DNA from: Pseudomonas sp. BN411
GTDB taxonomy: Bacteria > Pseudomonadota > Gammaproteobacteria > Pseudomonadales > Pseudomonadaceae
Assembly (NCBI RefSeq): GCF_029871235.1
Contig: NZ_SSOM01000067.1
Location: forward strand, 434,001-498,000
DNA length: 64,000 nucleotides
Direction of reading: 5' to 3'
Shown here: one piece after another, positions 28,747-47,373 of the stretch
Numbering within the stretch: the first letter of the stretch is position 1
Layout: every line of letters starts with the position of its first letter
Program-made: the position numbers and the translations under genes
The notes under the pieces: generated by a model
The model's input: the letters and a program-made list of their open reading frames with translations, nothing else
What the model was told of the DNA's origin: nothing
Database searches by the model: none

Positions 28747-29520
28747 ATGGCGCGTCTGTCCAACAAGGTTGCGGTCATCACCGGTGCCGCTTCGGGTATC
28801 GGTCTGGCCTGCATCCGCCGTTTTGCCGAGGAAGGCGCACAGGTGGTCGGGCTGGATATGGGCGAGCCGCGCCCTGAGGCTGCCGCAAGCCTGGAAGGGC
28901 TGCAGCCGGCGCCGCTGTTCATGACCCTGGACGTGCGTGACGAGGACCGGGTGCAGGCCGTGATGGACGAAGTGGTGAAGCGCTTCGGCCGCATCGACGC
29001 GCTGGTCAACGCCGCCGGCATCTCCAGCCGTGGCAGCATCACCGAGACCAGCACCGAGGAATGGCGCCGAGTGCTGGAAATCCATCTCACCGGCAGCATG
29101 CTCACCAGCAAGTACGCCCTGCCGCAGATGATCGCCCAGCGCAGCGGCTCGATCATCAACTTCGGCTCGATCTTCGGCCTCCAGGGCTGCGACGGCAACG
29201 CCGCCTACAACACCGCCAAGGGCGGTATCAGCCAGCTCACCCGCTCCATGTCCATCGACTACGGTTACGCCAACATCCGCGTCAACGGCCTGTGCCCGGG
29301 GCTGATCGACACCCCCATGACGCAGATGGTCAAGGAGCAGAAGGAGTTCCACGCCTACTTCTCCTCCCAGCACATGCTGTGCCGTGCCGGGCAGCCGGTG
29401 GAAGTGGCTAATGTGGCGCTGTTCCTGGCGTCCGATGAGTCCTCCTTCGTCAGCGGCCAGATGATCGCCGTGGACGGCGGTTTCTCCGCCGGCCGACGCT
29501 TCGCACCACCGCAAGCCTGA
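28747..29520 (+). CDS. Short-chain dehydrogenase/reductase
   Basis: The 257-residue SDR has TGAASGIG, a DVRDED acidic cofactor region, NAAG, and the catalytic YNTAK, all standard for NAD-dependent alcohol oxidation or ketone reduction. FIDTPM-type ending appears as LIDTPMTQM. It is first in a two-gene operon with a FadD3-like CoA ligase and has both island regulatory motifs. The substrate is not known. NAAG with YNTAK rather than NNAG with YSASK sets it apart from the other five in the island. Confidence 0.85.
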   Translation: MARLSNKVAVITGAASGIGLACIRRFAEEGAQVVGLDMGEPRPEAAASLEGLQPAPLFMTLDVRDEDRVQAVMDEVVKRFGRIDALVNAAGISSRGSITETSTEEWRRVLEIHLTGSMLTSKYALPQMIAQRSGSIINFGSIFGLQGCDGNAAYNTAKGGISQLTRSMSIDYGYANIRVNGLCPGLIDTPMTQMVKEQKEFHAYFSSQHMLCRAGQPVEVANVALFLASDESSFVSGQMIAVDGGFSAGRRFAPPQA

Positions 29521-31216: not shown

Positions 31217-32383
31217 CTACAGGCTTCTGGTGCTTTCCGCACCCGCGACACTGCCGCCCAGCACGGCCACGCTGTTGTGCAGGACATAGGCCAGTTCGCT
31301 CTGACGGGTAACCCCGGCCTTGGAGAAGATCGCCCGCAAGTGCGCCTTCACCGTGTTGCGGCGGATGTTCAGTTGGACGCCGGCTTCGTCCAGTGTGTTG
31401 CCATGGGCCAGCTGGATCGCCAGGGCGGCTTCGGCGGGGGTGAAGCCGAACAGCTGGCGTAGCGGCTGCTGTTGCACGTCTGCCCGGCGTTCCGGATCAC
31501 GCAGGAAAACCGCCACGGCCGGATGCCGGCCTTCCAGGCTTTCCTCGCGGGGCAGGCTTTGCACCACCACCCCCAGGCTGCTGCGGCCGGAGGGGCGCTG
31601 CAGGGTGATGGCTTCGGCGATTCGCGGGCCCTCCGACACGCGCTGCTCCAAGGCTTGCTTGATCACGCGCTGCAAGGCCTGGTTGTCGCTCCGATAGGCT
31701 GCACCGAGACGGTCTCCGGCGACGTTCAGGCCATCACCCTCGCCTAGCATTTCATTGGCGGCCTGATTGGTTTCCATGACCTGCAGATGGTTGTCGAGAA
31801 TGATGGTGCCGATCTGCATGCGCTCGACCGCCGAGGCATACAGCTGGCGTTCGACTTCACTGCGCTTGAGCTGGCCATACAGGTTTACCGCACGCCGCAG
31901 ATGCGGCAGCAGGCGTGCGCAGAACGCCTTGTCCTGCGCAGTGAAACTGCTGTCCTGGTGCGGGCGGCAGACACGCAGGCGGCACTCGATGCCGTTGGCG
32001 GTGTACAGGTCGGCACCCATGATGTGGAACACATCCAGCGGTGCATTGAAACTCAGGTAGAAATCCGATTTCAGCCAGCGCTCCTCGCCCAGCAGTTCGG
32101 CCACCGTGTGGACTTCGCCAGCGGGCAGGCCGACGAAGGGGTCGAGGGCGTAATAGGTTTCGCTGTATGCGGAGACTGCCCAGGTCTCGACCGGGCCGGC
32201 GTTGACCATGAAGCCGGGATCACCTGGCGCACTGGGGCGCAGGATCAGGGTGACGTAGTTGGCGCCCAGCGCAGTCCGCAGCTGTTCGAGGCTTCGCTGC
32301 CAGGGCAGCTCTTCGCTGGCGCCTTCGTAGATCTGCTCGATGAGCTGGCTGAGTTGATCCAGAGAGATGTCGGATGGATTCAT
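31217..32383 (-). CDS. LuxR-family transcriptional regulator (first of a pair)
   Basis: The 388-residue protein has a C-terminal LuxR/FixJ helix-turn-helix (about residues 318-375: FGFTPAEAALAIQLAHG, then LNIRRNTVKAHLRAIFSKAG) and a long N-terminal region with no receiver domain or autoinducer pocket that I can recognise. Residues about 195-250 look PAS-like (IILDNHLQVMETNQAANEML). Size and layout recall TeiR, a steroid-responsive LuxR activator of Comamonas (about 390 residues). It is paralogous to the next gene. An 18-bp motif lies 97 bases upstream, suggesting autoregulation or cross-regulation. I propose it binds that motif; the ligand is unknown. Confidence 0.85.
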   Translation of the reverse strand: MNPSDISLDQLSQLIEQIYEGASEELPWQRSLEQLRTALGANYVTLILRPSAPGDPGFMVNAGPVETWAVSAYSETYYALDPFVGLPAGEVHTVAELLGEERWLKSDFYLSFNAPLDVFHIMGADLYTANGIECRLRVCRPHQDSSFTAQDKAFCARLLPHLRRAVNLYGQLKRSEVERQLYASAVERMQIGTIILDNHLQVMETNQAANEMLGEGDGLNVAGDRLGAAYRSDNQALQRVIKQALEQRVSEGPRIAEAITLQRPSGRSSLGVVVQSLPREESLEGRHPAVAVFLRDPERRADVQQQPLRQLFGFTPAEAALAIQLAHGNTLDEAGVQLNIRRNTVKAHLRAIFSKAGVTRQSELAYVLHNSVAVLGGSVAGAESTRSL

Positions 32384-32580: not shown

Positions 32581-33744
32581 TCAAGCCAGCGAAGCGACGC
32601 TGTTCAGCAGGGTCTTCACCAGTTGCGCCTGGCGGGTCGCGCCGGTCTTGGCGAACACGCCGCGCAGGTGCGCCCGCACAGTATTGCGCGTGACCCCGAG
32701 GCGCTCGGCGCTTTCGTCAAGGGTCAGGCCGTCCATGATCAGCATCGCCACCTCGGTTTCCGTGCGGGTCAGCTGGAACAGGCTGCGCAACAGGCGCCGG
32801 GAGGCTTGGGGCGAGTCGCTGGGGTCGCGGATGAACACCGCCACCGCCGGTCTCCGGGCTGCCCCACGGCTTTCGTGGTCCAGGGCGATGGGACGCAGCA
32901 GTACGTTCAACGGCACTTCGCCAGTGGGGCGGGTCAGAGTCAGCACTTCGACACAGTCTTCCCGGCCGTGCTGGTGATGCTGCAGCGCGGCGAGGATCGC
33001 CCGTTGCAGGTTGCGGTTGTCCTGGCCAGAGAACGCGCTGAGCTTTTCCTGTCGGCATTCGAGGCCGTCATGGCTGTCGAACAGCTGCTGGGCGGCCTGG
33101 TTGCTGCGCATCACCTTGCCGGTTTCGTCGAGGATGGCAGTGCCCACCAGCAGGCGGTCAATGGTGGCGGCATAGAGCAGGCGCTCGGAGTCCAGTTGGT
33201 CCACCGTGGAGTGCAAGTCCACGGCCTGCTGCAGGTGTGGCAGCAGCAGGCGCACCAGGGCGATTTCACTATCGTCGAAGTCCCGGCTGGCGTGCTCGCG
33301 GCAGGCGAACAGCGCGCAATGCATGCCTGCCGTCGTGCGCATGTTGGCCACCAGTACGTAGCGCAGGTCCAGCGGCTGGAGGTAGTTCTGGTAGAAGTCG
33401 TGCGCCAGCCAGTGGTCGCTGCCCATCACCTGGTCAGCGCTGGCCACCTGGTCGGCGGACCAGTGGAGGAAGGGGCAGATCGAGTAGTAGTGCTCGCTGT
33501 AGGACGGCTCGCCCGGCAGGTGCGGCCCGTGGATCGAGGCGTTGACGATCAGCCCCGGCCGTTCGTGGGCGGGGTTGCGCAATACCAGGGTCAGGAAGCT
33601 GGCCTCGAAACGCAGGCGCAGCGCTTCCAGCAGGCCGGCCCAGGGTGTGGGTTCCAGGGGGCCCTGGTAGGTCAATGCCAGCAGCTCGCTGAGTTCCGCC
33701 GAGCTGATGGCTGCAAGTTCATGGGCGTGTCGGTAGTCGTTCAT
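32581..33744 (-). CDS. LuxR-family transcriptional regulator (second of a pair)
   Basis: The 387-residue paralogue of the preceding regulator has the same plan: helix-turn-helix at the C-terminus (FQLTRTETEVAMLIMDG ... LGVTRNTVRAHLRGVFAKTG), a PAS-like central segment (AILDETGKVMRSNQAAQQL), and a variable N-terminal region. Shared anchors with its twin (LLPHLRRAV/LLPHLQQAV; PAVAVFLRDP/PAVAVFIRDP) show gene duplication. The N-terminal halves differ more, so the two may sense different intermediates. It has its own 18-bp motif 67 bases upstream. Its leader has a near-CA sequence (ACAACAAG) that falls short of the motif. Confidence 0.85.
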   Translation of the reverse strand: MNDYRHAHELAAISSAELSELLALTYQGPLEPTPWAGLLEALRLRFEASFLTLVLRNPAHERPGLIVNASIHGPHLPGEPSYSEHYYSICPFLHWSADQVASADQVMGSDHWLAHDFYQNYLQPLDLRYVLVANMRTTAGMHCALFACREHASRDFDDSEIALVRLLLPHLQQAVDLHSTVDQLDSERLLYAATIDRLLVGTAILDETGKVMRSNQAAQQLFDSHDGLECRQEKLSAFSGQDNRNLQRAILAALQHHQHGREDCVEVLTLTRPTGEVPLNVLLRPIALDHESRGAARRPAVAVFIRDPSDSPQASRRLLRSLFQLTRTETEVAMLIMDGLTLDESAERLGVTRNTVRAHLRGVFAKTGATRQAQLVKTLLNSVASLA

Positions 33745-33968: not shown

Positions 33969-35846
33969 TTAGAGCGCCAACAGGTGCTCGACGATGCGCT
34001 CGGCGGCGGCTTCGGCCGATTCGCTCGCCGTATCGATGCGCAGGTCCGGTGCCAGCGGCGGCTCGTAGGGCGAATCGATGCCGGTGAAGTTCTTCAGTTC
34101 ACCGCGCCGGGCTTTCTGGTAGAGGCCCTTGGGGTCGCGGCTCTCGGCCAGCTCCAGCGATGCGTCGATGAAGATCTCCAGGAAGGCCCCTTCGCCCGCC
34201 AGGCTGCGTGCCAGGTCGCGCTCGGCACGGAATGGCGAGATGAAGGACACCAGCGTGATCAGCCCGGCATCCAGCATCAGCCGCGCCACTTCCGCTACGC
34301 GGCGGATGTTCTCCACCCGGTCCGCCTCGCTGAAGCCCAGGTCGCGGTTCAGGCCGTGGCGCACGTTGTCACCGTCCAGCAGGTAGGTGTGACGGCCCAG
34401 GGCGTGCAGCTTGCGCTCCACCAGATTGGCGATGGTCGACTTGCCAGCGCCGGAAAGCCCGGTGAACCAGAGGATGCGCGGCGTCTGGCCCTTCAGGGTG
34501 GCACGGGCCGCACCGTTCACGTCGATGGCCTGCCAGTGCACGTTCTGCGCGCGGCGCAGGGCGAAGTGCAGCATGCCGGCGCCGACGGTCTGGTTGGTCA
34601 GGCGGTCGATGATGATGAAGCCGCCGGTATCGCGGTTATCCGCATAGGCATCGAAGGGGATCGGCTGGTCCAGGCTCAGGTCGCAGACGCCGATCTCGTT
34701 CAGCTCCAGGGTCCGGGCCGCCAGCTGTTGCAGGCTGTTCACGTCCACCTTGTGCTTGAGGGTGGTGCAGCTCATGCCCAAGGTGCGGCAGCCGATTTTC
34801 AGCAGGTAGGGGCGGCCAGGCAGCATCGGCTCTTCGCCCATCCAGACCAGGGTGGATTCGAACTGGTCGGCCACCGCTGGCGGCGCGTCGGCCAGGGCGA
34901 TGAGGTCGCCACGGCTGATGTCGATCTCGTCTTCCAGGGTCAGGGTCACCGCCTGGCCGCAGACCGCTTCCTGCTGCTCGCCGGCGAGGCCAAGGATGCC
35001 GCTCACCCGGCTCTGCTTGCCCGACGGCAGCACGCGGATGCGCTCGCCGACACGGATGCTGCCCGCCGCCACGTTGCCCGAGTAGCCACGGAAATCGAGG
35101 TTGGGGCGGTTCACCCACTGCACCGGCAGGCGGAACGGCGCGTGGCTCGCACGGTCGTCGTCCAGGGGCACGGTTTCGAGGTGCTGCAGCAGGCTGGGGC
35201 CCTGGTACCAGGGCATGCTGGTGCTGCGCTCGATGAGGTTGTCGCCTTTGAGCGCTGACAGCGGGATGCACTGGATATCGCTCAGGCCGAGCTGTTCGGC
35301 AAACGCGCGGTAGTCGGCTTCGATTCGGGCGAAGACCTCTTCGGAATAGCCCATCAGGTCCATCTTGTTCACCGCCACCAGCACCCGGCGGATGCCCAGC
35401 AGGGACACCAGGTAGCTGTGCCGGCGGGTCTGCGGCAGCAGGCCCTGGCGCGCGTCGACCAGAATCACCGCCACGTCGGCGGTGGAGGCGCCGGTGACCA
35501 TGTTGCGGGTGTACTGCTCGTGGCCGGGGGTGTCGGCGACGATGAATTTGCGCTTGTCGGTGGCGAAGAACCGGTAGGCCACGTCGATGGTGATGCCTTG
35601 TTCACGCTCGGCGGCCAGGCCGTCCACCAGCAGGGCGAAGTCCAGCTCGCCGCCCTGGGTGCCGAGTTTCTTCGAGTCCGCTTCCAGTTGGCCGAGCTGG
35701 TCCTCGAAGAGCACTTTGGTTTCGTAGAGCAGGCGCCCGATCAGGGTGCTCTTGCCGTCGTCGACGCTGCCGCAGGTGATGAAGCGCAGCAGGTCCTTGC
35801 GCTGTTGTTGCTGCAGGTACTGGTCCAGGTTCGAAATGGCGTTCAT
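33969..35846 (-). CDS. cysN: Bifunctional sulfate adenylyltransferase GTPase subunit/APS kinase (CysNC)
   Basis: The 625-residue fusion regulates ATP sulfurylase and then phosphorylates APS to PAPS. The GTPase half has G1 ([16 protein letters not shown]), G3 ([12 protein letters not shown]) and G4 (NKMDLMGY). The APS kinase half begins near residue 450, with P-loop [15 protein letters not shown] and [18 protein letters not shown]. Length fits pseudomonad CysNC. Its ATG overlaps the cysD stop by one base (TGATG), so the two are translated together. The unit has an island 18-bp motif upstream and sits among catabolic genes next to the sulfotransferase operon. This suggests dedicated PAPS supply rather than, or as well as, general sulfate assimilation. 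Confidence 0.93.
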
Positions 35847-36742
35847 CAGAAGTACCCCTCTTGCTTCTTCTTCTCCATGGAACCGGATGAATCGCTGTCG
35901 ATCAGTCGGCCCTGGCGTTCGGAGGTTCGGCTCACCAGCATTTCCTGGATGATCGCCGGGAGGCTGTCGGCCTCGCTGTCGATGGCACCGGTCAGCGGGT
36001 AGCAGCCGAGGGTGCGGAAGCGCACCTTGCGCAGTTCCGGCGTTTCGCCGGGCAGCAGCGGCAGGCGCTCGTCATCGACCATGATCAGGGTGCCGTCCCG
36101 GCGTACCACCGGACGCTCTTGGGCGAAGTACAGGGGTACGATCGGGATGCCTTCGAGGTAGATGTATTGCCAGATATCCAGCTCGGTCCAGTTGGAGAGC
36201 GGGAACACGCGCAGGCTCTCGCCCTTGCGCTTGCGGGTGTTGTACAGGCGCCAGAGTTCGGGGCGCTGTTGCTTGGGATCCCAGCGGTGCTGCTCGGAGC
36301 GGATCGAGAACACCCGCTCCTTGGCGCGGGACTTCTCCTCATCGCGGCGGGCACCGCCGAAGGCCGCGTCGAAGCCGTACAGGTCCAGGGCCTGCTTCAG
36401 CCCTTGGGTCTTCCAGATATCGGTGTGCAGCGCCGAGCCGTGGGTGAAGGGGTTGATCCCACGTTCCTGGCCTTCCGGGTTGATGTGCACCAGCAGTTCC
36501 AGGCCCAGGCGCTCGGCGGTCTGGTCGCGGAAAGCGATCATTTCGCGGAATTTCCAGGTGGTGTCCACGTGCAGCAGGGGGAAGGGTGGCTTGCCCGGGG
36601 CAAAAGCCTTCATCGCCAGGTGCAGCATGACCGCGCTGTCCTTGCCGATGGAGTAGAGCATCACCGGGTTTTCACACTCGGCGACGACTTCCCGGATGAT
36701 CTGGACGCTCTCCGCTTCCAGTCGTTGTAGGTGTGTCAGCAT
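35846..36742 (-). CDS. cysD: Sulfate adenylyltransferase small subunit (CysD)
   Basis: The 298-residue subunit makes APS from ATP and sulfate with CysN. The PP-loop motif [14 protein letters not shown] is near residue 30; [30 protein letters not shown] and [15 protein letters not shown] are family hallmarks. The start at 36742 has CGGAGG upstream. The 5' leader contains a GC hairpin and, 83 bases from the start, an island 18-bp motif just past the SRPBCC stop codon. Whether a second cysD exists elsewhere in this genome decides if this is the housekeeping copy. Confidence 0.93.
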
Positions 36743-36762
36743 CGCTTGCCTCCGTTGGATGG

Positions 36763-36796
36763 AGCCGGCGCCGCATGGGGCGGGCCGGCTTTTTTC
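36763..36796 (+). terminator. Terminator-like hairpin facing the plus strand in the cysD leader
   Basis: AGCCGGC and GCCGGCT form a stem followed by TTTTTT on the plus strand. No plus-strand gene ends here, so it would stop antisense transcription. As minus-strand RNA it is an A-run followed by a hairpin in the cysD leader. Its role is unclear. Confidence 0.4.
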
Positions 36797-36825
36797 CACG
36801 GTAGGGAATGCGTCGCTGCAGGTTC

Positions 36826-36843
36826 TTCGTCTGACCGGACAAG
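36826..36843 (-). promoter_or_regulatory. Island 18-bp motif upstream of cysD-cysNC
   Basis: Minus strand CTTGTCCGGTCAGACGAA: 6 of 7 in the left half, 6 of 8 in the right. The right half is identical to that of the DUF1214 site (CAGACGAA). It lies 83 bases before the cysD start. Confidence 0.6.
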
Positions 36844-36846
36844 GTT

Positions 36847-37317
36847 TCAGCGGCGGGTGCCAATCAGGGATTCGGCCCGTGCCTTCACCGCCAGGGCGAC
36901 CGCATCGAAGCCCTGCTTGACCCAGGGGCCATGCAGCTCCATCACCTGATCGGCGGTAGGACCGAGGAACAGGTCGGTGGTGTAGTAACGGCAACTGTCG
37001 GGGCCTGTGGCTTCGATCACCTGGTCGCGACGGGCGGCGTCCGGGTTGTCGGCGCTGGCGAACATCTCCCACGAGAGCAGGCGGTGCGGTTCGAAGGCCA
37101 CCAGTTGCTCGATCACATGCACCAACTCGCCGGGGCTGGCGGGGTTGGGCAGGTACAGGTTCACCGGCTCGCCCATTCGCAGACTGGACTCTACCTTGAC
37201 GGTGAAGGGGTTCCACTGCGGGTAGCGTTCCAGATCGACCAGCACCGACCAGACCAGCTCGGCGGGGGCGGCGATATCCACGGTCAGCGACCGCACCAGG
37301 TTCTTTTCTTCAGCCAT
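36847..37317 (-). CDS. SRPBCC (START-like) family protein
   Basis: The 156-residue protein has the SRPBCC/polyketide-cyclase-like pattern: [26 protein letters not shown], a curved-sheet core with LLSWEMFA, and a long C-terminal helix ([14 protein letters not shown]). The fold encloses a hydrophobic pocket and often binds lipids, sterols or aromatic molecules. Its job here might be binding or carrying a hydrophobic intermediate. It has its own 18-bp motif 78 bases upstream and ends just before the cysD motif. GAGGA supports the start at 37317. Confidence 0.8.
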
Positions 37318-37395
37318 CGGGGATTCCTCGGGAAACAGGCGCCGCACCGCGCGGCGCCGATCCGGCCGATGCTCCGCGCACGCCGCTGCCGCTTC

Positions 37396-37413
37396 CTCGT
37401 CCGGGTGGACTAG
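37396..37413 (-). promoter_or_regulatory. Island 18-bp motif upstream of the SRPBCC gene
   Basis: Minus strand CTAGTCCACCCGGACGAG: 14 of 15 defined positions, 78 bases before the start. Confidence 0.7.
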
Positions 37414-37433
37414 GTTCCCGCTCATTGCCTCGC

Positions 37434-37526
37434 TGTAGGAGCCAGCTTGCCGGCGAATGATGCGCCCGCTTTCGCGAGCAAGCTCGCACCTACATCCAGA
37501 TCGTAGGATGGGTGGAGCTACATCCA
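37434..37526. repeat. Family E repeat and half of a family F repeat
   Basis: 37434-37497 is a family E pair (TGTAGGAGCCAGCTTGCC ... GCGAGCAAGCTCGCACCTAC). 37501-37526 is a single family F arm (GTAGGATGGGTGGAGCTAC). They separate the 18-bp motifs of the divergent SRPBCC and DUF1214 units; this 317-base gap holds no gene. Confidence 0.65.
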
Positions 37527-37546
37527 GCAGCGAGCCAGCCGGTGAT

Positions 37547-37564
37547 TTAGTCCGCCCAGACGAA
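37547..37564 (+). promoter_or_regulatory. Island 18-bp motif upstream of the DUF1214-sulfotransferase operon
   Basis: TTAGTCCGCCCAGACGAA: 6 of 7 and 6 of 8, 70 bases before the start. CCCTAAGG about 21 bases downstream may hold the -10. Confidence 0.6.
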
Positions 37565-37634
37565 GAATCCGCCCCGCCCATCTCCCTAAGGTTTCCGCAG
37601 TGGCGGGCCATCCGCCGGACCAGAGGAGACCGAG

Positions 37635-38747
37635 ATGACGACCGAGAACATCGAGCAACAGGTGTGCAGCGGGCAGGTCTGGAGCGATTTCTGCGACCAG
37701 CTCAAACGTAGTGGCGAGCAGATCCTGCGGAGCGAGGCACCCAGCGATGCGCACACCCGCGCCGAGGGGTTCCGCTACCTCACGCGCCTGCTGCGCATTG
37801 CCCTGGAAATGCACCTGGAGTTCGCTGACCCGGACTTCCCCGGCTTCTTCTCGCCGTCCCACGAGACGGCCAAGATCGGCGCCGACAACCCGGACAACCT
37901 CTACCAATACGCCCGCCTGAACGGCCAGCATCAGTACCGCGTCAGCGGCCGTCGCGGCAGCGTGTCCTACCTCAGCTTCGGCACCCAGAAGGGCGGCTAT
38001 GAAAGCGACGGCAAGATGATCCAGACCGGCTTCATCGACGCCAGCCAGCTGCAACTGGAGGCCGATGGCAGCTTCGAGGTCATCCTCAGCCAGGAGCCAC
38101 CGGCCAAGGGCAACTGGGTGCGCGTGGAACCGGAGAGCAACGCCCTGATCGTGCGCCAGACCTTCCTCGACCGCGCCAGCGAGCAGCCCGCGCAACTGCG
38201 CATCGAGCGGCTGGATAGTCGCCAGCAGCCCGAACCGCTGAGCGCCGCGCGCTTGCAGCAGAGCCTGGGTCGCGCCGCCAGCTTCGTCGAGAACACCGCG
38301 CGCCTGTTCGCGGATTGGGCCGAGGGCTACCAGGCCCACACCAATGGCCTGCCACCGGCGGACCAGGCCCTGTGCCAGTCGGTGGGCGGTGATCCGAACA
38401 TCTTCTACTACCACGGCTATTGGGAGCTGGCCGACGACGAGGCGTTGCTGATCGAAGTCGACCAGGTGCCCGACTGCGACTTCTGGAATCTGCAGATCAA
38501 CAACTACTGGATGGAGTCGCTGGACTACCGCCACCACCGCATCTGCCTGAACAAGCACTCGGCGCAGCTGGACAAGCGCGGCGGCGTGCGCCTGGTGCTG
38601 AGCCACCGTGACCCCGGCCTGCCGAACTGGCTGGAAACCGCCGGCCATGCCAACGGCACCCTCTGTCTGCGTTGGGTCGGCGCCAGCCAGCCGGTCCACC
38701 CCACCACCCGCGTGGTCAAGCTGAACCACCTGAAGGAGCTGCAATGA
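37635..38747 (+). CDS. DUF1214 domain-containing protein
   Basis: The 370-residue cytoplasmic protein has no signal peptide. Its C-terminal third (DDEALLIEVDQVPDCDFWNL, NYWMESLDYRHHRICLNKHS, LVLSHRDPGLPNWLETAGH) matches DUF1214, a beta-rich domain of unknown function common in actinobacterial and proteobacterial lipid or steroid gene clusters. The N-terminal half (LTRLLRIALEMHLEFADPDF; GADNPDNLYQYARLNG) is also typical of these longer proteins. It is first in a four-gene operon and overlaps the sulfotransferase by 4 bases (ATGA), so the two products are probably made together and may act on the same molecule. Confidence 0.8.
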   Translation: MTTENIEQQVCSGQVWSDFCDQLKRSGEQILRSEAPSDAHTRAEGFRYLTRLLRIALEMHLEFADPDFPGFFSPSHETAKIGADNPDNLYQYARLNGQHQYRVSGRRGSVSYLSFGTQKGGYESDGKMIQTGFIDASQLQLEADGSFEVILSQEPPAKGNWVRVEPESNALIVRQTFLDRASEQPAQLRIERLDSRQQPEPLSAARLQQSLGRAASFVENTARLFADWAEGYQAHTNGLPPADQALCQSVGGDPNIFYYHGYWELADDEALLIEVDQVPDCDFWNLQINNYWMESLDYRHHRICLNKHSAQLDKRGGVRLVLSHRDPGLPNWLETAGHANGTLCLRWVGASQPVHPTTRVVKLNHLKELQ

Positions 38748-39928
38748 CCCATTCCATCGCACCGGGCAGCGAATTCGCCCCCGACAGCCTGCTGGCCGAG
38801 GCCAGTGCCCGCGCTGGTGGCCTGGAGGACTTCGGTCCCGGCGACTTCCGCGAGGCCCTTAAGGTCCTTGAGGGCGCCCTGAACCGGGAGGCCCGTCTTT
38901 CCACCCACGGGCGCGGCTTGCTCCGGGAAAAACTGGTGGCGCAACTGGTCAACCGCCTGGTGATCGAAGACCACTGCAAGCGCTTTCCGGAAATCCTCCA
39001 GCAGCCCATCGACGACCCGCTGGTAATCGTCGGCCTGCCGCGCACCGGGACCACGCTGTTGCAGCGCGTGCTGTCGGTGGACCCGCAGTTCAGCAAGGCG
39101 CAATGGTGGGAGACCCGCTACCCGGCGCCGTTGCCCGGGGAGACGCTGGAGCAGCCTGAAGTGCGGATCGGTCGGGCAAAGGCCGAGGTCGCCGCGATGA
39201 TCGAATTCGTGCCGCAAATCCTCACCATCCATCCGTTGGACGCGGAGCAGCCGGACGAAGAGTTCATGCTCATGGAGCACTCCTTCCTCTGCGCCATGGA
39301 TTCCTATGTGAACGTGCCGGCCTACACCGCCTGGCTCGATCGCCAGGACCAGGTCCAGGTCTACGCCTACCTGAAGAAGATGCTGCAGTTCCTGAGCTGG
39401 CAGCAGGCCCGTCGTGGCATCGCACCGGGTCGCCGCTGGCTGCTGAAGAGCCCGCAACACCTGCACACCCTGGAGCTGCTGTTCCAGGTCTTCCCGCGCG
39501 CTCAGGTGGTGCTGACCCATCGCGATCCGGGCAAGACCATCCCCTCCCTGGCGAGCTTTATCCACACCCTCTGGCAGATCTACAGCGAAGAGGCGGACCC
39601 GGCCCAGGTGGGCGAGCAGTGGAACACCCGCATGGCCCGCGCCCTGCGCCATACCATGGCGGTCCGCGAGCCCATGCCGGACGGGGCATTTCTCGACGTG
39701 CACTTCGAGGACACCGTCAGCCAGCCGCTGGACGTGGTGGAGCGGATTTACCGCTTCGCCGGGCTGGAACTCACGGCGGATGTGCGCGCTGCCATGACCG
39801 ACTGGCTGGCCGCCAACGGCCGCGAGAAACGCGCCGCGCATCACTACGACGCTGAGGCGTTCGGCCTCGACGAGGCGCGGCTGCAGCGCGATTACGGCGA
39901 GTACCGCGCCCGCCACCTGGCGCACTGA
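38744..39928 (+). CDS. PAPS-dependent sulfotransferase family protein
   Basis: The 394-residue protein matches the Sulfotransfer_3-type family. The 5'-phosphosulfate loop is GLPRTGTTLLQRVL, beginning at residue 97, and the 3'-phosphate segment is VVLTHRDPGKTIPSLASF. Conserved family blocks include WWETRYPAPLPG, WLLKSPQHLHTLE and HFEDTVSQPLDVVERIY. It would move a sulfuryl group from PAPS to a hydroxyl. Sulfotransferases are unusual in degradative operons. Here the PAPS-making genes cysD-cysNC lie 2 kb away under the same 18-bp motif. The acceptor is unknown. Confidence 0.83.
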   Translation: MTHSIAPGSEFAPDSLLAEASARAGGLEDFGPGDFREALKVLEGALNREARLSTHGRGLLREKLVAQLVNRLVIEDHCKRFPEILQQPIDDPLVIVGLPRTGTTLLQRVLSVDPQFSKAQWWETRYPAPLPGETLEQPEVRIGRAKAEVAAMIEFVPQILTIHPLDAEQPDEEFMLMEHSFLCAMDSYVNVPAYTAWLDRQDQVQVYAYLKKMLQFLSWQQARRGIAPGRRWLLKSPQHLHTLELLFQVFPRAQVVLTHRDPGKTIPSLASFIHTLWQIYSEEADPAQVGEQWNTRMARALRHTMAVREPMPDGAFLDVHFEDTVSQPLDVVERIYRFAGLELTADVRAAMTDWLAANGREKRAAHHYDAEAFGLDEARLQRDYGEYRARHLAH

Positions 39929-39940
39929 GATTCCAAGACC

Positions 39941-39948
39941 AACAACAA
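39941..39948 (+). promoter_or_regulatory. CA motif before the third short-chain dehydrogenase
   Basis: AACAACAA followed by GAGGA, 12 bases before the ATG at 39961. It is the same arrangement as at the flavin reductase gene and lies within the operon. Confidence 0.65.
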
Positions 39949-39960
39949 GAGGAACCGAAC

Positions 39961-40749
39961 ATGTTGCTGAAAGACAAGGTTGTGATGATCTCCGGCATCG
40001 GCCCGGGCATGGGCATCAAGCTCGCCCTGGAAGCCGCCCGTGAAGGCGCTCGCGCCGTCGCCATCTGCGCCCGCAATGAGGCGCGTCTGCGTGACGCGGA
40101 GCAGCGCATCCGCGCCCTGGGCACCGACTGCCAGGTGTTCTGGATGCCCACCGATGTGAGCGACGCCAAGGCCTGCCGGGCCTTTGCCGAGGCCACGCTG
40201 GAGCGCTTCGGGCGCATCGATGCACTGGTCAACAGCGCCTATGCCCATGGCGGCTTCGACTCACTGGAAGGCTGTTCGGACGAGCTGCTGCAGGAGGCCC
40301 TGGACGTCAACCTGTTCGGCTCGCTGCACCTGACCCGCGCCGTGCTGCCGCAGATGAAGGCCCAGCGCGCTGGCGCCATCGTCATGATCAGCACCCTGGG
40401 CGTGCACCAGCCCTATGCCGGCGGTGGTGCCTATGCCGTCTCCAAGGGCACGCTGTCCGTGGCGGTGCGTTACCTGGCATCTGAACTGGCCGAGCATGGC
40501 CTGCGGGTGAACGGCCTGGCCTGCGGCTGGATGTGGGGGGAGCCGGTACAGGCCCATGTACGCGAGGCGGCCGCCGCGCGCGGTGTCAGCGAGGAGCAGG
40601 TGCGAGCCGAATTCAGCGCGGGCATTCCCGGCGGACGTATGCCGGGGGACGAGGAGTGCGCCCGTGCGGCCCTGTTCCTGGCCTCCGACTACGCCAGCGC
40701 CATCAATGGTGTGCAGCTGGACGCCAATGGCGGCGAGCTGATGCGCTGA
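39961..40749 (+). CDS. Short-chain dehydrogenase/reductase, atypical cofactor motif
   Basis: The 262-residue SDR has SGIGPGMG in place of the usual TGxxxGIG, NSAYAHGG in place of NNAG, and catalytic YAVSK. These substitutions are seen in a branch of SDRs common in steroid and lipid clusters. CARNEAR after the second strand suggests NADP preference. Third gene of the DUF1214 operon, with its own CA motif. Substrate unknown. Confidence 0.83.
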   Translation: MLLKDKVVMISGIGPGMGIKLALEAAREGARAVAICARNEARLRDAEQRIRALGTDCQVFWMPTDVSDAKACRAFAEATLERFGRIDALVNSAYAHGGFDSLEGCSDELLQEALDVNLFGSLHLTRAVLPQMKAQRAGAIVMISTLGVHQPYAGGGAYAVSKGTLSVAVRYLASELAEHGLRVNGLACGWMWGEPVQAHVREAAAARGVSEEQVRAEFSAGIPGGRMPGDEECARAALFLASDYASAINGVQLDANGGELMR

Positions 40750-40766
40750 GTGAGGGGGAGACGACG

Positions 40767-41741
40767 ATGCTCGATCATTGTGCTTTCAACGGTGATGCGG
40801 ACGGCCTCTGCGCCCTGCAGCAGCTGCGCCTGGCGGGTGAACTGGCGGCGGATGTGCGCCTGGTCAGCGGGGTGAAGCGTGACATTGCCTTGCTGCAACG
40901 GGTGCAGGCCGGAGCCGGGGAGCGGGTGACGGTGCTCGACGTCTCCCACGAGGAAAACCGCGCCGATGCGGCGCGGTTGCTCGGCGCGGGCGCCCGTGTC
41001 CGCTACTTCGACCACCACTTCGCCGGGGAGCTGCCTGACCATCCTGGCTTCGAGTCGTACATCGACACCGCTGCGGATGTCTGCACCAGTCTGCTGGTGG
41101 ATCGCTTCCTGGAGGGGCGATTCCACCGCTGGGCGGTGGCAGCGGTCTTCGGCGATGGCATGGCTGGCCCGGCGAGGGCGCTGGCCGCGCGTCATGGGCT
41201 GGCGGACGAGGACACTCGCGCGCTCGAAGAGCTGGGCCTGTTGCTGAACTACAACGCCTACGGGGACAGCCTGGCCGACCTGCACTTTGACCCGGTGGCC
41301 CTGGCAGCGGAATTGCTGCCGTATCAGGACCCGCTCGACTTCATCCGGAATAGCCCCAGCTTCGCCCGCCTGCGTGCCGGGCACGCTGCTGACATGGCGC
41401 AGGCAGCCAGCCTGGAGCCCTGGCAGCTGGGGAGTGGCGCGACGCTTTACCGTTTGCCGGCCGAGCCCTGGGCGCGTCGGGTCAGCGGCGTGCTGGCGAA
41501 CCAGCTGGCCGCTCGCGATCCGGGGCGTGCACTCGGTCTGCTGAGCGTCCGGACGGACGGTGACTGGATGTTCAGCCTGCGTGTGCCGGCCACGGCCAGC
41601 CTGGAGGCGGATGCTTTCTGTCGGGGGTTCGCCACCGGGGGAGGGCGCAAGCGCGCCGCCGGTATCAATCGCTTGCCGGCTGGGGCTGTTGAACGCTTCG
41701 CCGGGCAGTTCCTCGAGGCCTATCCCAACCCGGTCCCGTAG
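40767..41741 (+). CDS. DHH-family phosphoesterase (DHH + DHHA1)
   Basis: The 324-residue protein has the DHH metal motifs NGDADGLC (residues 8-15), VLDVSH and FDHHFAG (Asp82-His83-His84), and a DHHA1-like end GGGRKRAAGI. Relatives cut short oligonucleotides or phosphoesters, and NrnA-type members also remove the 3'-phosphate of pAp. A GGGGGAG site precedes the ATG at 40767. It is last in the operon with the sulfotransferase, whose by-product is PAP. Recycling PAP would explain an otherwise odd neighbour. That is inference, and this protein is not a clear NrnA. Confidence 0.8.
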   Translation: MLDHCAFNGDADGLCALQQLRLAGELAADVRLVSGVKRDIALLQRVQAGAGERVTVLDVSHEENRADAARLLGAGARVRYFDHHFAGELPDHPGFESYIDTAADVCTSLLVDRFLEGRFHRWAVAAVFGDGMAGPARALAARHGLADEDTRALEELGLLLNYNAYGDSLADLHFDPVALAAELLPYQDPLDFIRNSPSFARLRAGHAADMAQAASLEPWQLGSGATLYRLPAEPWARRVSGVLANQLAARDPGRALGLLSVRTDGDWMFSLRVPATASLEADAFCRGFATGGGRKRAAGINRLPAGAVERFAGQFLEAYPNPVP

Positions 41742-41786
41742 CTCCGCTCTCGGTGCGCTGTGTGCACCAGTGCTTGGACATCGTGC

Positions 41787-41980
41787 CGTAGGGTGGAAAT
41801 CGCTTTTCATTTCCACCGTCCCTGTCATGCCGCACGCCGATGGTGGACCGGTGAAGCGTGGTCCACCCTACGTCCCTCCGGGTTCATTCGCTCCCACAGC
41901 GCCGTGGGGTGCGCTGTGCGCACCAGTGTTTGGACGTAATGCCATAGCTTGTAGGGTGGGCGGCAGGTCTAACCCGCGTG
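41787..41980. repeat. Family F palindromic repeats before the KshA-like operon
   Basis: 41787-41880 contains GTAGGGTGGAAATCGC with an inner inverted copy (GATTTCCAC-like) and GGTCCACCCTACG at the right end. 41951-41980 begins another arm (GTAGGGTGGGCGGCAGGTC). The phrase GTGCGCTGTGTGCACCAGTG or GGTGCGCTGTGCGCACCAGT occurs twice around them. No gene lies in this 321-base gap. Confidence 0.6.
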
Positions 41981-42000: not shown

Positions 42001-42062
42001 GTCCGGGAATCGGGGATGGAGAATAGTTCGAGTTGACATCCATCCCCCTTCAGGAGATCAGC

Positions 42063-43145
42063 ATGGAACGGTCGACTCCCCTTCATGGCGGCGTATCCGC
42101 GCCGCGCTTCGCGCGAGGCTGGCACTGCCTCGGCCTGGTAACCGATTACGCAGACGGCAAGCCTCATCCACTGAACATCTTCGGCACCCGTCTCGTGGCG
42201 TTCCGTGGCGAAGACGGCGCGATGCACATCCTCGACGGCTACTGCCCGCACATGGGCGCGGACCTCGCCGGTGGGCATGTGGAGGGCGATACCGTGGTGT
42301 GCCCCTTCCACCACTGGAAGTGGGGCAGCGACGGCAAGTGCGTGTCGATTCCCTATTGCAAGCGCGTGCCCATGCGGGCGCGGGTCAAGGCGTGGCCGAC
42401 GCTGGAGAAGAACCAGCTGCTGTACGTCTGGAACGACCCCGAAGGCAATGCGCCGGACCCCGAGGTGGAGGCGCCGCGCATCGAGGCCTGTTATTCGGCC
42501 GAGTGGACGGAGTGGATGATGCGCAAGATGGTCATCCAGACCAACTGCCGCGAGCTGGTGGATAACCTCGCCGACTTCGCGCATTTCGGGCCGGTACATG
42601 GCTCGCCGGCCAGCTACTTCTGCAACACCTTCGACGGACACCGGGGCTACCAGATGTTCCAGGGCGAGGACAGCGAGTTGCTGGGCAGCGGCCTGCGCGC
42701 GGACAGCGCCTACTTCGGGCCCGCCTACCACATCACCCGCATGACCGCGCAGGCCGGCGGGCAGACCCTCGACACGCTGCTGCTCAACTGCCACGTGCCC
42801 ATCGACCAGAACAGCTTCGAGCTGCGCTACGCGATCAAGGTCAGGAAGCAGCCGGGACTCTCCGAAGCCGAGAACGAGGCCATCGCCGAGGTCTATGCCG
42901 GGCAGGCGCACAAGTCCTTCTTCCAGGACGTGGAGATCTGGAACAGCAAGACCCGCATCGACAAACCGATCCTCTGCGAAGGGGATGGCCCGGTGTACCA
43001 GCTGCGCGAGTGGTACGAGCAGTTCTACACCGATGTCGCCGACCTGCCTGCGCCGGCCCGGAAGGTATTCGAGTGCAAGGGCGGTGTCTGGCAGCAGCTC
43101 GACGAGGTGCCTGAACAGGCCCGCAGCCAGCTGCACCTGATCTGA
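42063..43145 (+). CDS. Rieske non-heme iron oxygenase, KshA-like
   Basis: The 360-residue oxygenase component has the Rieske ligands Cys61, His63, Cys80 and His83 (CPHMGADLAGG and CPFHHWKW), and a mononuclear iron site Asp171, His174, His179 in VDNLADFAHFGPVH. The start (RFARGWHCLGLVTDY), YVWNDPEGN and TNCRELVDN closely resemble KshA, the 3-ketosteroid 9alpha-hydroxylase that opens ring B. A bile-acid or other cyclic substrate is equally possible. No reductase is in this operon; the KshB-like gene at 27.3 kb is the likely partner. AGGAGATC precedes the ATG. First of seven genes, ending at 48929. Confidence 0.88.
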   Translation: MERSTPLHGGVSAPRFARGWHCLGLVTDYADGKPHPLNIFGTRLVAFRGEDGAMHILDGYCPHMGADLAGGHVEGDTVVCPFHHWKWGSDGKCVSIPYCKRVPMRARVKAWPTLEKNQLLYVWNDPEGNAPDPEVEAPRIEACYSAEWTEWMMRKMVIQTNCRELVDNLADFAHFGPVHGSPASYFCNTFDGHRGYQMFQGEDSELLGSGLRADSAYFGPAYHITRMTAQAGGQTLDTLLLNCHVPIDQNSFELRYAIKVRKQPGLSEAENEAIAEVYAGQAHKSFFQDVEIWNSKTRIDKPILCEGDGPVYQLREWYEQFYTDVADLPAPARKVFECKGGVWQQLDEVPEQARSQLHLI

Positions 43146-43159
43146 GCGCGGCATTTCAG

Positions 43160-43170
43160 AACAACAACAA
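43160..43170 (+). promoter_or_regulatory. Extended CA motif before the fourth short-chain dehydrogenase
   Basis: AACAACAACAA, four A-A-n repeats, 15 bases before the ATG at 43186, with CGGAAGGA between. It is the longest such run in the window. Confidence 0.68.
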
Positions 43171-43185
43171 GCGGAAGGACGGGAC

Positions 43186-44013
43186 ATGAGGCTCGAAGGC
43201 AAGGTCGCGCTGGTTACCGGCGCGGGATCGGGAATGGGGCGTGCCACGGCGGCATTGTTCGCCGCCGAAGGGGCGAGCGTGGTGGTGGTGGATATCGACG
43301 AGGCGGCGGCGCAGCGCACGGTCGCCGAACTGACAACGCGCGAGAGCAGTTTCGCCAGTGCCTGCGACATCGGTGACAGCGCGTCGGTGGCGAGATTGTT
43401 TGCCGAGGTGGACGAGCGCTACGGCTGCCTTGATGTGCTGGTCAACAACGCCGGCGTCGGCCAGGTGCCCGGCGATGGCTTCGACCAGTACCAGCAGCGC
43501 CTGGCCAAGCGCAGCGAGCAATTGGCCGCGGGCGTGGAGCCCGACGTGTTCACCGACATGATCGTCGACCTGACCGATGCCGGTTGGCAGCGAATCGTCG
43601 ATATCAACCTCAATGGCACCTTCTACTGCAGCCGTGCGGCGGTGCGCCTGATGATCGCCAGCGGCCGGATGGGCTCGATCATCAACATCGCCAGCCTGTC
43701 CGCGCTCAGCGGTGAAGGGCCGCTTGCCTACTGCGCGTCCAAGGCCGCCGTGATCGGCCTGGGCAAGTGCCTGGCTCGCGACCTCGGCCCGCGCGGCATC
43801 CGCGTCAACACCATCTGCCCGGGGCCGACCCGCACGCCGATGATGCAGTCGATCTCCCGCGAATGGCAGCAGGCCCTGGAGCGTGCCATTCCCCTCGGCC
43901 GCCTGCTGGAGCCGGAAGAAATCGCGCGGACCTGCCTGTTCCTGGCCAGCGATGAAGCCAGCGCTTTTACCGGACAAACCCTCGCCGCCGCCGGCGGCAT
44001 GATGATGCTCTGA
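43186..44013 (+). CDS. Short-chain dehydrogenase with an insertion before the active site
   Basis: The 275-residue SDR has [16 protein letters not shown] (NAD-type acidic residue), NNAG, and catalytic YCASK. It is longer than the usual 250 because of about 20 extra residues after [10 protein letters not shown] ([20 protein letters not shown]), just where the substrate loop lies. This may reflect a larger substrate. Second gene of the KshA-like operon; 40 bases separate it from the first, and they hold the CA motif. TIDE-type substrate cannot be told. Confidence 0.85.
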
Positions 44014-44024
44014 GAGGACTTCCC

Positions 44025-44846
44025 ATGAGTGGACGACTGCAAGGCAAGGTGGCGCTGATCAGTGGCGCCGGCACGGGAATCGGCGCGGCGGCGGCTCGGC
44101 TGTTCGCGGCCCAGGGCTGCAAGGTGATGGTCTGCGGACGTCGCCAGGCACCGCTGGAGGCGGTGGTGGCGGAGATTCGCGCGCAAGGTGGGGAGGCCGA
44201 TTGGGTGCAGGCCGACGTCACCGATGAGCAGTCGGTGGAAAATGCCGTGAGCAAGACCCTGGAGCGCTTCGGCCGCTTCGACGTCATGGTCAACAACGCG
44301 GTGAATTACACCTGGGGCCCGCTGGTGGGCCTTTCCACCGAGGAGTGGCACAAGAGCCTGCGCGGCAGCCTCGATGTGGCCTTCTTCGGCACCCGTGCGG
44401 CGATGCGGGTGATGCAGGGCAAGGGCGGCTCGATCATCAACATGGGCTCGGTCGCCGGCCTGCTCGGCAGTCCCGGTCTCAGCGCCTACGGCGCGGCCAA
44501 GGCCGGCGTCGTCAACTTCAGTCGCGCGGCGGCCCTGGAAGGCGCGGCCGAGAAAGTCCGCGTCAACGTGGTCATTCCCGGCATCGTCTGGAGCGAAGGC
44601 ACCCGCGAGGCGATGCGCAGTGAGCAGATGATCGCGGGCACAGCGCGGGCCGTGCCGCTGGGGCGCATCGGCCAGCCGGAGGAGGTCGGCAACGCCATCC
44701 TCTTCCTCGCCACGGACGAGTCCTCCTACATCACCGGCCAGACCCTGGTGGTCGATGGCGGCAAGACCTGCGAACTCAACGTCGGCGCCAGCGACTACAC
44801 CTCGGCGACCTCCACTGAAATCAGATCGGCCCTGAGCGAGGCGTGA
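44025..44846 (+). CDS. Short-chain dehydrogenase/reductase
   Basis: The 273-residue SDR has [12 protein letters not shown] in place of NNAG, and catalytic YGAAK. CGRRQAP after the second beta strand suggests NADP use, as in the FabG or DecR-like reductases. It starts 11 bases after the previous gene. The last 25 residues ([20 protein letters not shown]) extend beyond the core fold. It may be a ketone or enoyl reductase within the pathway. Confidence 0.85.
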
Positions 44847-44849
44847 CCC

Positions 44850-45614
44850 ATGGATATCCAACTGAATATTCCCGCCAGCCCGGTGCTGGTGACTGGCGGC
44901 GCCTCCGGTATCGGTGAGGCCACTGCCGAGGCTCTGGCAGCGGTGAAACGCCCTGTCGCCATCTGGGACCTGCAGGCCGACAAGGCCCAGGCCGTGGCGG
45001 CGCGTCTGGCCGAGCAATACGGCGTGCCGTGCCTGGGCCTGGGCATCGACCTGCGCGATCCGGCCGCCATCGCCCCGGCCCTGGGGCAGACCCGTGCTGA
45101 ACTCGGGGCACCGGGCGGCCTGGTGCATGCCGCTGGCGTCGTTGACCAGAGCGGCCTGGAAAATCTGACGGCGGACAGCTGGGACCTGGTGTTGAACGTC
45201 AACCTGCGCGCCATGGCACTGCTGGTGCAGGCCATGCTGCCGGACCTGCGGGCCAATCCGGGCTCTGCGGTGGTCGGCATCGCCTCGATCAACGCCACCC
45301 TGGGTAATGGGTTGATTCCTTCCTACAGCGCCTCCAAGGGCGGGATGCTGTCGATGGTTCGCTCGATGGCCGATGCCCTTGGCGCCGACGGTATCCGCGT
45401 CAACTCGGTGTCGCCGGGGCAGATCCTCACCCCGATGGTGGCGCCAATTGCGGCCGCGCGGCCCGGTCATTTCGAGCGCCGGATCATCCTCGGCCGCCTG
45501 GGCCAGCCTGCGGAGATCGGCCGGGTGGTGCGCTTCCTGCTGTCCGACGAGGCCAGCTACATCAACGCCGCCGAGATCGTCGTCGACGGCGGCAACATTT
45601 CCTCGCAGCGCTGA
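44850..45614 (+). CDS. Short-chain dehydrogenase/reductase
   Basis: The 254-residue SDR has VTGGASGIG, IWDLQADKA (NAD-type Asp), HAAGVV in place of NNAG, and YSASKGG. Three bases separate it from the previous stop, so translation is probably coupled. It is the third consecutive SDR of the operon and the sixth of the island. Such arrays are usual where several ring hydroxyls or ketones must be changed one by one. Confidence 0.85.
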   Translation: MDIQLNIPASPVLVTGGASGIGEATAEALAAVKRPVAIWDLQADKAQAVAARLAEQYGVPCLGLGIDLRDPAAIAPALGQTRAELGAPGGLVHAAGVVDQSGLENLTADSWDLVLNVNLRAMALLVQAMLPDLRANPGSAVVGIASINATLGNGLIPSYSASKGGMLSMVRSMADALGADGIRVNSVSPGQILTPMVAPIAAARPGHFERRIILGRLGQPAEIGRVVRFLLSDEASYINAAEIVVDGGNISSQR

Positions 45615-45628
45615 TCCGGGAGATCGCC

Positions 45629-46254
45629 ATGAACGAGCAAAGCTTGCAGGCGCGGCTGGACCGGCTGGAGTCGCTGGAGGAAATCCGCATGCTGCCAGCC
45701 AAGTACGCGCTGGCCCTGGACATGCGTGACCTGGACGCCTGGGTCGGGTTGTTCCCTGAAGACATCAAGGTCGGTCAGGACAAGGTCGGCCGGGCTCACC
45801 TGAAGGCCTGGATCGACGACACCCTGCGCCTGCAGTTCAGCACCACGTCGCACCACATCGGTGGCCACATCATCGAGTTCAAGGACCCGGATAACGCCTG
45901 TGGCGTGGTCTATTCGAAGAACGAGCATGAGGCCGGCCCCGAGTGGGTGATCATGCAGATGCTCTACTGGGACGACTATCAGCGCATCGATGGGCGCTGG
46001 TACTTCCGCCGGCGCCTGCCGTGCTACCTCTACGCCAGCGACCTGAACCGCCCGCCGATTGGCGAGAAGAAGATGCGTTGGCCAGGTCGCGAGCCCTATG
46101 ACGGCTCCTGGCATGAGCTGTGGCCGAGCTGGAAGACCTTCTGGAGCGAAAAGCCGGGCGATGCCCTGCCGGAAGTGGCCGAGCCCGCACCGCTGGACGC
46201 GTTCCTGGAACGCATGCGGCGCGGTTCGTCTGCACCTCGGGTGAGGGTGCGCTG

Positions 46255-47369: not shown

Positions 47370-47373
<4 letters not shown>

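Follow-up and report, generated by a model that had tools for sequence, protein, structure and literature searches.

Accounts of bacterial steroid degradation usually centre on oxidation, ring cleavage and coenzyme A (CoA) chemistry; conjugation with sulfate is known from animals. Dedicated sulfation is familiar in bacteria from nodPQ-nodH of Sinorhizobium and raxPQ-raxST of Xanthomonas, in which paralogues of ATP sulfurylase and adenosine 5'-phosphosulfate (APS) kinase lie beside one sulfotransferase, under a pathway-specific regulator, and serve signal biosynthesis. The 64-kb stretch of the Pseudomonas sp. BN411 genome analysed here, which we call the window (bases 434001-498000 of contig C37; genome 6.37 Mb), holds a gene set that resembles these systems in having a pathway-owned supply of 3'-phosphoadenosine 5'-phosphosulfate (PAPS) for one sulfotransferase. 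Unlike them, it shares operator-like sites with a catabolic regulon, has a gene for the predicted removal of the by-product 3'-phosphoadenosine 5'-phosphate (PAP), always includes a DUF1214 gene and uses a sulfotransferase of the Sulfotransfer_3 family; it is not a member of the nodPQ-nodH system. We consider it probable that these genes form an accessory sulfation module of a steroid-degradation regulon, complete with shared control and a PAPS cycle, a judgement that leaves the purpose of sulfation aside.

Two further systems bear on this picture. TesR/TeiR of Comamonas testosteroni is described as a LuxR-type activator of steroid degradation (PMC6678751, PMC8399759, PMC6895838), and the shared sites and regulator type suggest that the module belongs to a steroid regulon of this kind. 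MtPAPP of Methanothermococcus hydrolyses PAP in assays, and its gene lies near ATP sulfurylase/APS kinase genes (PMC10322725).

The module consists of the following genes:

33969-35846, minus strand: cysNC paralogue, a fusion of the ATP sulfurylase large subunit with APS kinase (NF004035, 1058 bits, cut-off 715)
35846-36742, minus strand: cysD paralogue, ATP sulfurylase small subunit, the genome's second copy (CysD models above their cut-offs)
36847-37317, minus strand: SRPBCC (polyketide cyclase-like) gene (PF10604, E 4e-10, using the longer open frame)
37635-38747, plus strand: gene for a DUF1214 protein (PF06742, E 3.9e-10 over 45 residues)
38744-39928, plus strand: predicted PAPS-dependent sulfotransferase of the Sulfotransfer_3 family (PF13469, E 9e-41)
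39961-40749, plus strand: short-chain dehydrogenase/reductase (SDR; PF13561; NF005909 above its cut-off)
40767-41741, plus strand: DHH-fold phosphoesterase, putative PAP phosphatase (motifs NGDADG and DHH; predicted fold)

Gene calls were open reading frames chosen by codon composition, with no gene finder. An earlier reading of the window from its letters (the sequence-only reading) had named all but one of these genes, and NCBIfam for cysNC and cysD, Pfam for DUF1214, the sulfotransferase and the SDR, and motifs together with fold for the DHH protein bear the names out at these positions. The SRPBCC gene, which sits between cysD and DUF1214, was missing from its gene list.

The PAPS-making genes are an extra copy. 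CysD and CysNC are both full-length matches above curated NCBIfam cut-offs and have retained their nucleotide-binding motifs. Among relatives of CysNC, the GTPase G1 motif is found in 71 of 72 and the APS-kinase P-loop in all 72; the word NKMD, which the window protein has, occurs in 40. The PP-loop is present in 74 of 78 CysD relatives. Whether the genome holds a further cysD was a check proposed in the sequence-only reading, and it does: a canonical cysD lies at C35:284645-285538. Across 18 genomes of the genus, our own included, the sulfotransferase is found in ten, and all ten carry an extra cysD beside it (95-100% identical). The extra copy occurs in none of the eight sulfotransferase-free genomes, seven of which have a single cysD. 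The eighth, G004, also has two, but its second cysD (C19:10230-11117) is of another kind, 71% identical.

The same association extends beyond the genus. We analysed 80 loci, the best 80 of 107 sulfotransferase relatives in the genome_contigs collection, so distant sulfotransferases are under-represented. Their organisms include Pseudomonas, Burkholderia, Cupriavidus and Comamonas, with 44 loci outside Pseudomonas and Halopseudomonas. Sixty loci have cysD and DUF1214 divergent, as in the window, 18 have them on one strand (the second architecture) and two have no cysD match. The sulfotransferase has cysNC alongside it in 79 loci and cysD in 78, the cysD exceptions being L059, a 9.9-kb contig with no cysD, and L071, with neither gene. 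The L071 locus, from Paraburkholderia caffeinitolerans, has LuxR, DUF1214, sulfotransferase, SDR and DHH genes without cysD or cysNC nearby, and is the sole such case among the 80.

These patterns support the view that the window's cysD-cysNC pair is an extra PAPS supply tied to the sulfotransferase, and with it the earlier proposal that the PAPS makers and the sulfotransferase form one module. The pair could instead be a spare cysDNC for sulfate starvation, part of ordinary sulfur assimilation and next to a catabolic operon by chance. This would fit with cysDNC being the normal assimilation pair and with the L071 operon lacking it, but the canonical cysD at C35 and the exact co-occurrence with the sulfotransferase in the genus weaken it, as do the 78-79 of 80 loci in which the extra genes track the sulfotransferase and the island's operator-like site in front of cysD. 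We regard it as very improbable.

The sites that connect the PAPS-making genes to their neighbours are near-palindromic and lie both within the module and elsewhere in the window:

36826-36843, minus strand: operator-like site of cysD, differing from the strict core at one position; CTTGTCCGGTCAGACGAA
37396-37413, minus strand: operator-like site of the SRPBCC gene, strict core match
37547-37564, plus strand: operator-like site of the DUF1214-sulfotransferase operon, strict core match; TTAGTCCGCCCAGACGAA
18675-18692, minus strand: operator-like site 60 bp before an EthD-like gene (17896-18615, minus strand), strict match
24254-24271, plus strand: operator-like site 63 bp before an HsaB-like flavin reductase gene (24334-24840, plus strand), strict match
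28659-28676, plus strand: operator-like site 71 bp before an SDR gene (28747-29520, plus strand), strict match

As the sequence-only reading had noted, cysD-cysNC and the DUF1214 operon each carry such a site (36826-36843 and 37547-37564), and the two share the same variant right half, CAGACGAA. The distance from the 16-bp core to the start codon is similar at the three module sites, at 71 bp for DUF1214, 84 bp for cysD and 79 bp for the SRPBCC gene. A loose form of the pattern has 13 matches in the window where 5.2 are expected, and none of 100 shuffles reached 13. Genome-wide, the core GTCYGNNCRGAC is found 23 times, four of them in the window, of which one is within the DHH coding sequence.

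Conservation of position is the strongest evidence that the site is a genuine candidate operator. In 58 of the 60 divergent loci, GTCY-N4-RGAC is present in the 180 bp before DUF1214, compared with 171 of 12,000 mononucleotide-shuffled upstream regions; L047 has no site and L062 has two sites farther upstream. A chance repeat, the obvious alternative, is rejected by this conserved position. The same pattern is found upstream of DUF1214 in one of the 18 one-strand loci and one of the two loci without a cysD match. In the second architecture, no convincing palindrome common to the regions ahead of cysD was found.

Elsewhere in the genome the sites lead to steroid-type genes. TAGTC-N6-GACGA has 22 exact occurrences, of which 12 fit the stricter TAGTCYNNNNRGACGA and ten do not. 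The strict sites are five in the window, five on contig C52 (within 24 kb) and two on C56. When these 12 and the cysD site were tested together, 11 of the 13 lay 55-88 bp before a start codon preceded by a ribosome-binding site. The genes that follow include KstD-, HsaB-, HsaC- and HsaD-like genes of the same genome, as would be expected of a steroid-type regulon. In 12 hsaC loci fetched from the genomes outside Pseudomonas and Halopseudomonas, the site stands just upstream of the gene in nine (not in L128, L131 and L132).

A NUDIX-domain gene (L109 7743-8372; C52:115742-116371), whose neighbours are a KshA-like gene and a LuxR paralogue, has a strict site at each end. Two 40-nt direct repeats (41752-41791 and 41908-41947, 85% identical) lie in the gap between the module and the operon that follows, and are possibly intergenic elements of the repetitive extragenic palindromic type.

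The most probable regulator lies just beyond cysNC, next to a paralogue:

32581-33744, minus strand: TesR/TeiR-like LuxR-family regulator with a GerE domain, the putative regulator of the module
31217-32383, minus strand: paralogous LuxR-family regulator, 39% identical to the 32581-33744 protein

The 32581-33744 protein has a counterpart of at least 55% identity in 57 of the 60 divergent loci and in none of the 18 one-strand loci. As the regulator and the site both follow the divergent architecture, we link the site to this protein. The comparison with TesR/TeiR was made by the placement of homologues in Comamonas genomes, not by the published TeiR sequence. A homologue of the window protein (34-36% identity) lies 16-18 kb from hsaC/tesB in all four Comamonas genomes searched (that of L061 was left out), and a pattern search of two Comamonas genomes placed the site before hsaC/tesB in each. 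TesR is said to stand at the far end of an 18-gene cluster that starts with tesB, as Horinouchi reportedly described in 2004. We call the window regulator TesR/TeiR-like because its Comamonas homologue sits at the tesB-tesR distance from hsaC/tesB. The window and the Comamonas regulon are thus alike in their LuxR-type regulator, in their shared sites and in the nearness of the Comamonas homologues to hsaC/tesB; they differ in the low identity of the two regulators and in the sulfation genes, none of which we found described for TesR/TeiR in the available parts of the papers named above. A TesR/TeiR-like LuxR protein, most likely that of 32581-33744, is the likely regulator of the module.

The genome holds homologues of KstD, KshA, HsaA-D and the CoA-transferase, the combination of the 9,10-seco pathway. 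In the window one of these is:

22811-24040, minus strand: HsaA-like flavin monooxygenase (NF045629, 382.7 bits, below the cut-off of 450)

None of the equivalog models reaches its cut-off: HsaA scores 382.7 against 450 bits, HsaC 306.9 against 450, HsaD 186.9 against 400 and KstD 592.2 against 788, and a BphC model scores 308 on the HsaC-like dioxygenase. For this reason we name the proteins HsaA-like and so on, and the pathway steroid-like. The KstD-, KshA- and HsaA-D-like genes nonetheless favour a steroid-like degradative partner, one of two guesses offered in the earlier reading.

The module and steroid-type genes also occur together across genomes. For the loci in Pseudomonas and Halopseudomonas we used a sample of 398 Pseudomonas-family genomes to stand in, counting sulfotransferases at E<=1e-100 and HsaC homologues at E<=1e-70. 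The sulfotransferase was found in 33 genomes and an HsaC homologue in 68, and all 33 fall within the 68 (hypergeometric 1.5e-29, with kinship not corrected). For the 44 loci outside these genera, the HsaC search covered 43 genomes (that of L048 was left out), and an HsaC homologue passes E<1e-100 in 41 of the 43, with a 36% match only in one and none in the other, figures for which there is no base rate. The association spans six Pseudomonas-family genera as well as betaproteobacteria.

Cupriavidus necator A5-1 provides a compact example. Directly beyond its module are homologues of the island's flavin reductase, FAD dehydrogenase, SDR and KshB-like reductase, together with CoA ligase, LuxR and EthD-like homologues and hsaC, and six of the genome's eight sites are on the module contig, at 262-315 kb. 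P. resinovorans NBRC 106553, given in the paper as NRBC106553, and C. necator ATCC 17699, both strains outside our module survey, are reported to grow on testosterone and not on cholate or cholesterol (PMC4810484).

Steroids might merely switch on a sulfated product that is no intermediate of their breakdown, such as a signal, a surfactant or a lipid. Signal sulfation by nodPQ-nodH is known to have this arrangement, an ATP sulfurylase/APS kinase dedicated to the sulfotransferase next to it, and the Burkholderia loci, up to 10 kb either side, show no match to the island's other catabolic genes. The HsaC association across six Pseudomonas-family genera and the betaproteobacteria speaks against this explanation, and the distant sphingomonad relatives described below likewise lie in catabolic, partly steroid-type clusters. 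We think it unlikely.

The removal of PAP seems to be built into the module, by one of two unrelated types of protein. The DHH gene matches no family in Pfam or NCBIfam at E<=0.001, and its protein finds weak matches when searched against solved structures by sequence (the best is NrnA, E 0.023 with the single protein and 0.73 with a profile), so a fold search was needed. The model has a mean predicted local distance difference test score (pLDDT) of 93.4. Its best match in the Protein Data Bank is MtPAPP (8A8K; template modelling (TM) score 0.69), and since other DHH phosphoesterases rank close behind, fold alone is not decisive for a PAP phosphatase. The two proteins share the DHH/DHHA1 fold and the nearness of their genes to ATP sulfurylase/APS kinase genes; they differ in sequence (13% identity over the alignment) and in setting, MtPAPP belonging to archaeal sulfate assimilation and the window protein to predicted sulfation. 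The NGDADG and DHH motifs are present in all 60 DHH relatives. The usual DHHA1 motif is GGGH, with histidine; at this position all 60 relatives read GGGR, with arginine.

Among the 60 divergent loci, the DHH gene is complete in 59 and the fetched stretches contain no CysQ match; in the sixtieth, L058, the contig is 8.1 kb long and the DHH match partial. None of the 18 one-strand loci has the DHH gene, and all 18 have a CysQ-family gene divergent from cysD. The three of these CysQ proteins that were scanned all exceed the cut-off of 228.8 bits, scoring 289-302. In the pNL2 cluster of Novosphingobium aromaticivorans and in Novosphingobium ES2-1, DUF1214 likewise has an annotated CysQ 4-7 kb away, two cases that we count as one hint because the loci are related. 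That two unrelated PAP-removing types replace each other within the same module is strong evidence for a shared role. From the fold, the context and this mutually exclusive replacement we infer that the DHH protein is a PAP phosphatase, as the sequence-only reading had suggested it could be. Its larger proposal, a sulfuryl-transfer cycle made up of PAPS makers, a PAPS user and a PAP remover, gains support from the gene content and from the DHH/CysQ exchange.

The sulfotransferase itself has the domain and the motifs of a PAPS-dependent enzyme. All 79 relatives have the motif GLPRTGTT and the loose form of THRxP...S, with the tight form in 47; we take these to be the 5'- and 3'-phosphosulfate-binding motifs. 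Its solved relatives, 2ZQ5 and 2Z6V, are both listed as uncharacterised. A viral origin is rejected, as none of three pattern-matching stretches on viral contigs encodes a relative of the sulfotransferase.

The DUF1214 protein is the most constant partner of the sulfotransferase. It is present with it in all 80 loci and directly precedes it in 79 (in L101 there is a gap of about 550 bp), and it has many invariant polar residues. The model, with a mean pLDDT of 85, was compared with known structures using Foldseek and VIA-align, and 6ANS, VPA0735 and VPA0106, the last two from Vibrio, stood well above the other rows. The solved 6ANS, an uncharacterised protein of Burkholderia cenocepacia, is 69% identical to the window protein over its whole length and gives a fold, not a role; structure comparison yielded no role, as all three proteins are without known function. 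An SDR match is found in 79 of the 80 loci and an SRPBCC match in 62. The operon of the second architecture adds SnoaL- and SRPBCC-type small proteins and, in many of its loci, a protein similar to the EthD-like one of the window.

Several observations weigh against the module as we describe it. The site is missing near DUF1214 in 17 of the 18 second-architecture loci, so shared control is not general and is indicated for the window's architecture only. The earlier claim of co-regulation with catabolic genes thus stands in part: the site is common to the module and to steroid-type genes on other contigs, but the second architecture does without it. The strict pattern was fixed after its matches had been seen, and genome-wide it is no commoner than a reversed control (12 against 20), so the count is not unusual and we did not use it; placement is what tells. 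Two of the 13 sites tested have no start codon preceded by a ribosome-binding site within 300 bp, and the Rieske/KshA-like operon that adjoins the module at 42033 has no strict site. The L071 sulfotransferase has no cysDNC nearby. The genome has a CysQ of its own, at C43, and the DHH protein is therefore not strictly required; a predicted fold, moreover, proves no activity. As the HsaA, HsaC, HsaD and KstD scores fall below curated cut-offs, steroid specificity rests on the ensemble. Thirty-five of the 68 HsaC genomes lack the sulfotransferase at E<=1e-100, which places the module outside the core pathway, as an accessory. In the main text on the testosterone/estradiol transcriptome of C. testosteroni JLU460ET, a strain outside the module survey, no sulfotransferase, cysD or cysN is named (PMC10637631). 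Taken as a whole, the sequence-only reading is nevertheless supported as regards the genes and the sites, and the catabolic partner is probably steroid-type degradation.

We envisage the module working as follows. Steroids would be sensed through the LuxR regulator, most likely that of 32581-33744, which would bind the three near-palindromic module sites, those of cysD, DUF1214 and the SRPBCC gene, and turn the module on together with the homologues of kstD, hsaB, hsaC and hsaD. CysD and CysNC would make PAPS, which the sulfotransferase would use to sulfate a hydroxyl on either a steroid or one of its breakdown products. The by-product PAP would be cleared by the DHH protein, or by CysQ in other lineages. 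The DUF1214 protein and the SDR may act immediately before or after the sulfotransferase.

If the module is what we propose, its purpose is a more tentative matter. The use that we place first, though we hold it at somewhat less than even, is that sulfate serves as a temporary activating group for the removal of a hydroxyl that is beyond the reach of the core pathway; the candidate for the enzyme that releases the sulfate is DUF1214. We favour a chemical sequence with a sulfate-activated oxygen because DUF1214 is constant beside the sulfotransferase and small SnoaL-, SRPBCC- and EthD-like proteins join the operon. In a specific and rather doubtful form of this idea, sulfation would drive deoxygenation: the SDR and the sulfotransferase would convert a superfluous oxygen of the steroid to a sulfate ester, and DUF1214, as a new enzyme family, would expel the sulfate and form a double bond. 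PAPS would then be spent as an activating reagent in degradation, with PAP recycling built into the operon.

Conjugation ranks next and is nearly as likely as activation, a possibility that we hold at about one in three. Here the sulfotransferase would cap a hydroxyl or phenol of the steroid or an intermediate, for solubility, lower membrane toxicity or denial to competitors, much as in animal phase-II metabolism, and DUF1214 might help in transport or de-conjugation. The accessory distribution (33 of the 68 HsaC genomes) and the dedicated PAPS supply fit with protection, and no sulfatase family was found among 30 window open reading frames scanned with Pfam, a scan that included no whole-genome sulfatase search. 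The position of DUF1214 directly before the sulfotransferase in 79 of 80 loci and the SDR match in 79 suggest, however, a chemical sequence over simple capping, and no exporter is found among the module genes.

Two neighbouring features bear on the extent of the island. The unit from the KshA-like gene to a CoA-ligase gene (42033-48929, plus strand) is present in six of the ten module-bearing genomes of the genus, BN411 among them. The stretches fetched from the remaining four do not contain it, and it is thus a separable block. A luciferase-like monooxygenase (21361-22548, minus strand) has a single match on pNL2 of N. aromaticivorans, 63% identical and beside a helix-turn-helix regulator. 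The pNL2 match fits the setting reported for a relative of the pdc luciferase-like monooxygenase, the enzyme that converts progesterone to testosterone acetate (PMC12239570). This setting suggests that the island may also handle pregnane side chains.

The sphingomonads have distant versions of the sulfotransferase-DUF1214 pair. On pNL2, a 50-kb stretch contains sulfotransferase, DUF1214, SRPBCC and CysQ genes together with genes for VOC, CoA-transferase and steroid Delta-isomerase proteins. A sulfotransferase and a DUF1214 protein, 35% and 43% identical respectively, are encoded side by side in Novosphingobium KACC 22771, and Sphingobium TomTYG64 has a DUF1214 (46% identical) after an annotated sulfotransferase. 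These clusters differ from the window in their low identity, their gene order and the lack of annotated cysDNC in the stretches viewed; none of the five sphingomonad or cyanobacterial regions first viewed has an annotated cysD or cysN.

In the open-licence literature we found nothing on sulfotransferases in the bacterial degradation of steroids, though subscription journals could hold such a report. A conserved set of genes for making PAPS, using it and removing PAP, tied to steroid-type genomes across several genera of the beta- and gammaproteobacteria, would extend this pathway by a new step or a new protective strategy. The module would give a function to DUF1214 proteins and predicts a DHH-type PAP phosphatase in bacteria, and its sites could be the operator of the TesR/TeiR regulators, which have long been studied. 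As sulfated steroids behave differently in water, the module could also bear on what becomes of hormone pollutants. Our results suggest that bacteria attach sulfate to something while degrading steroids.

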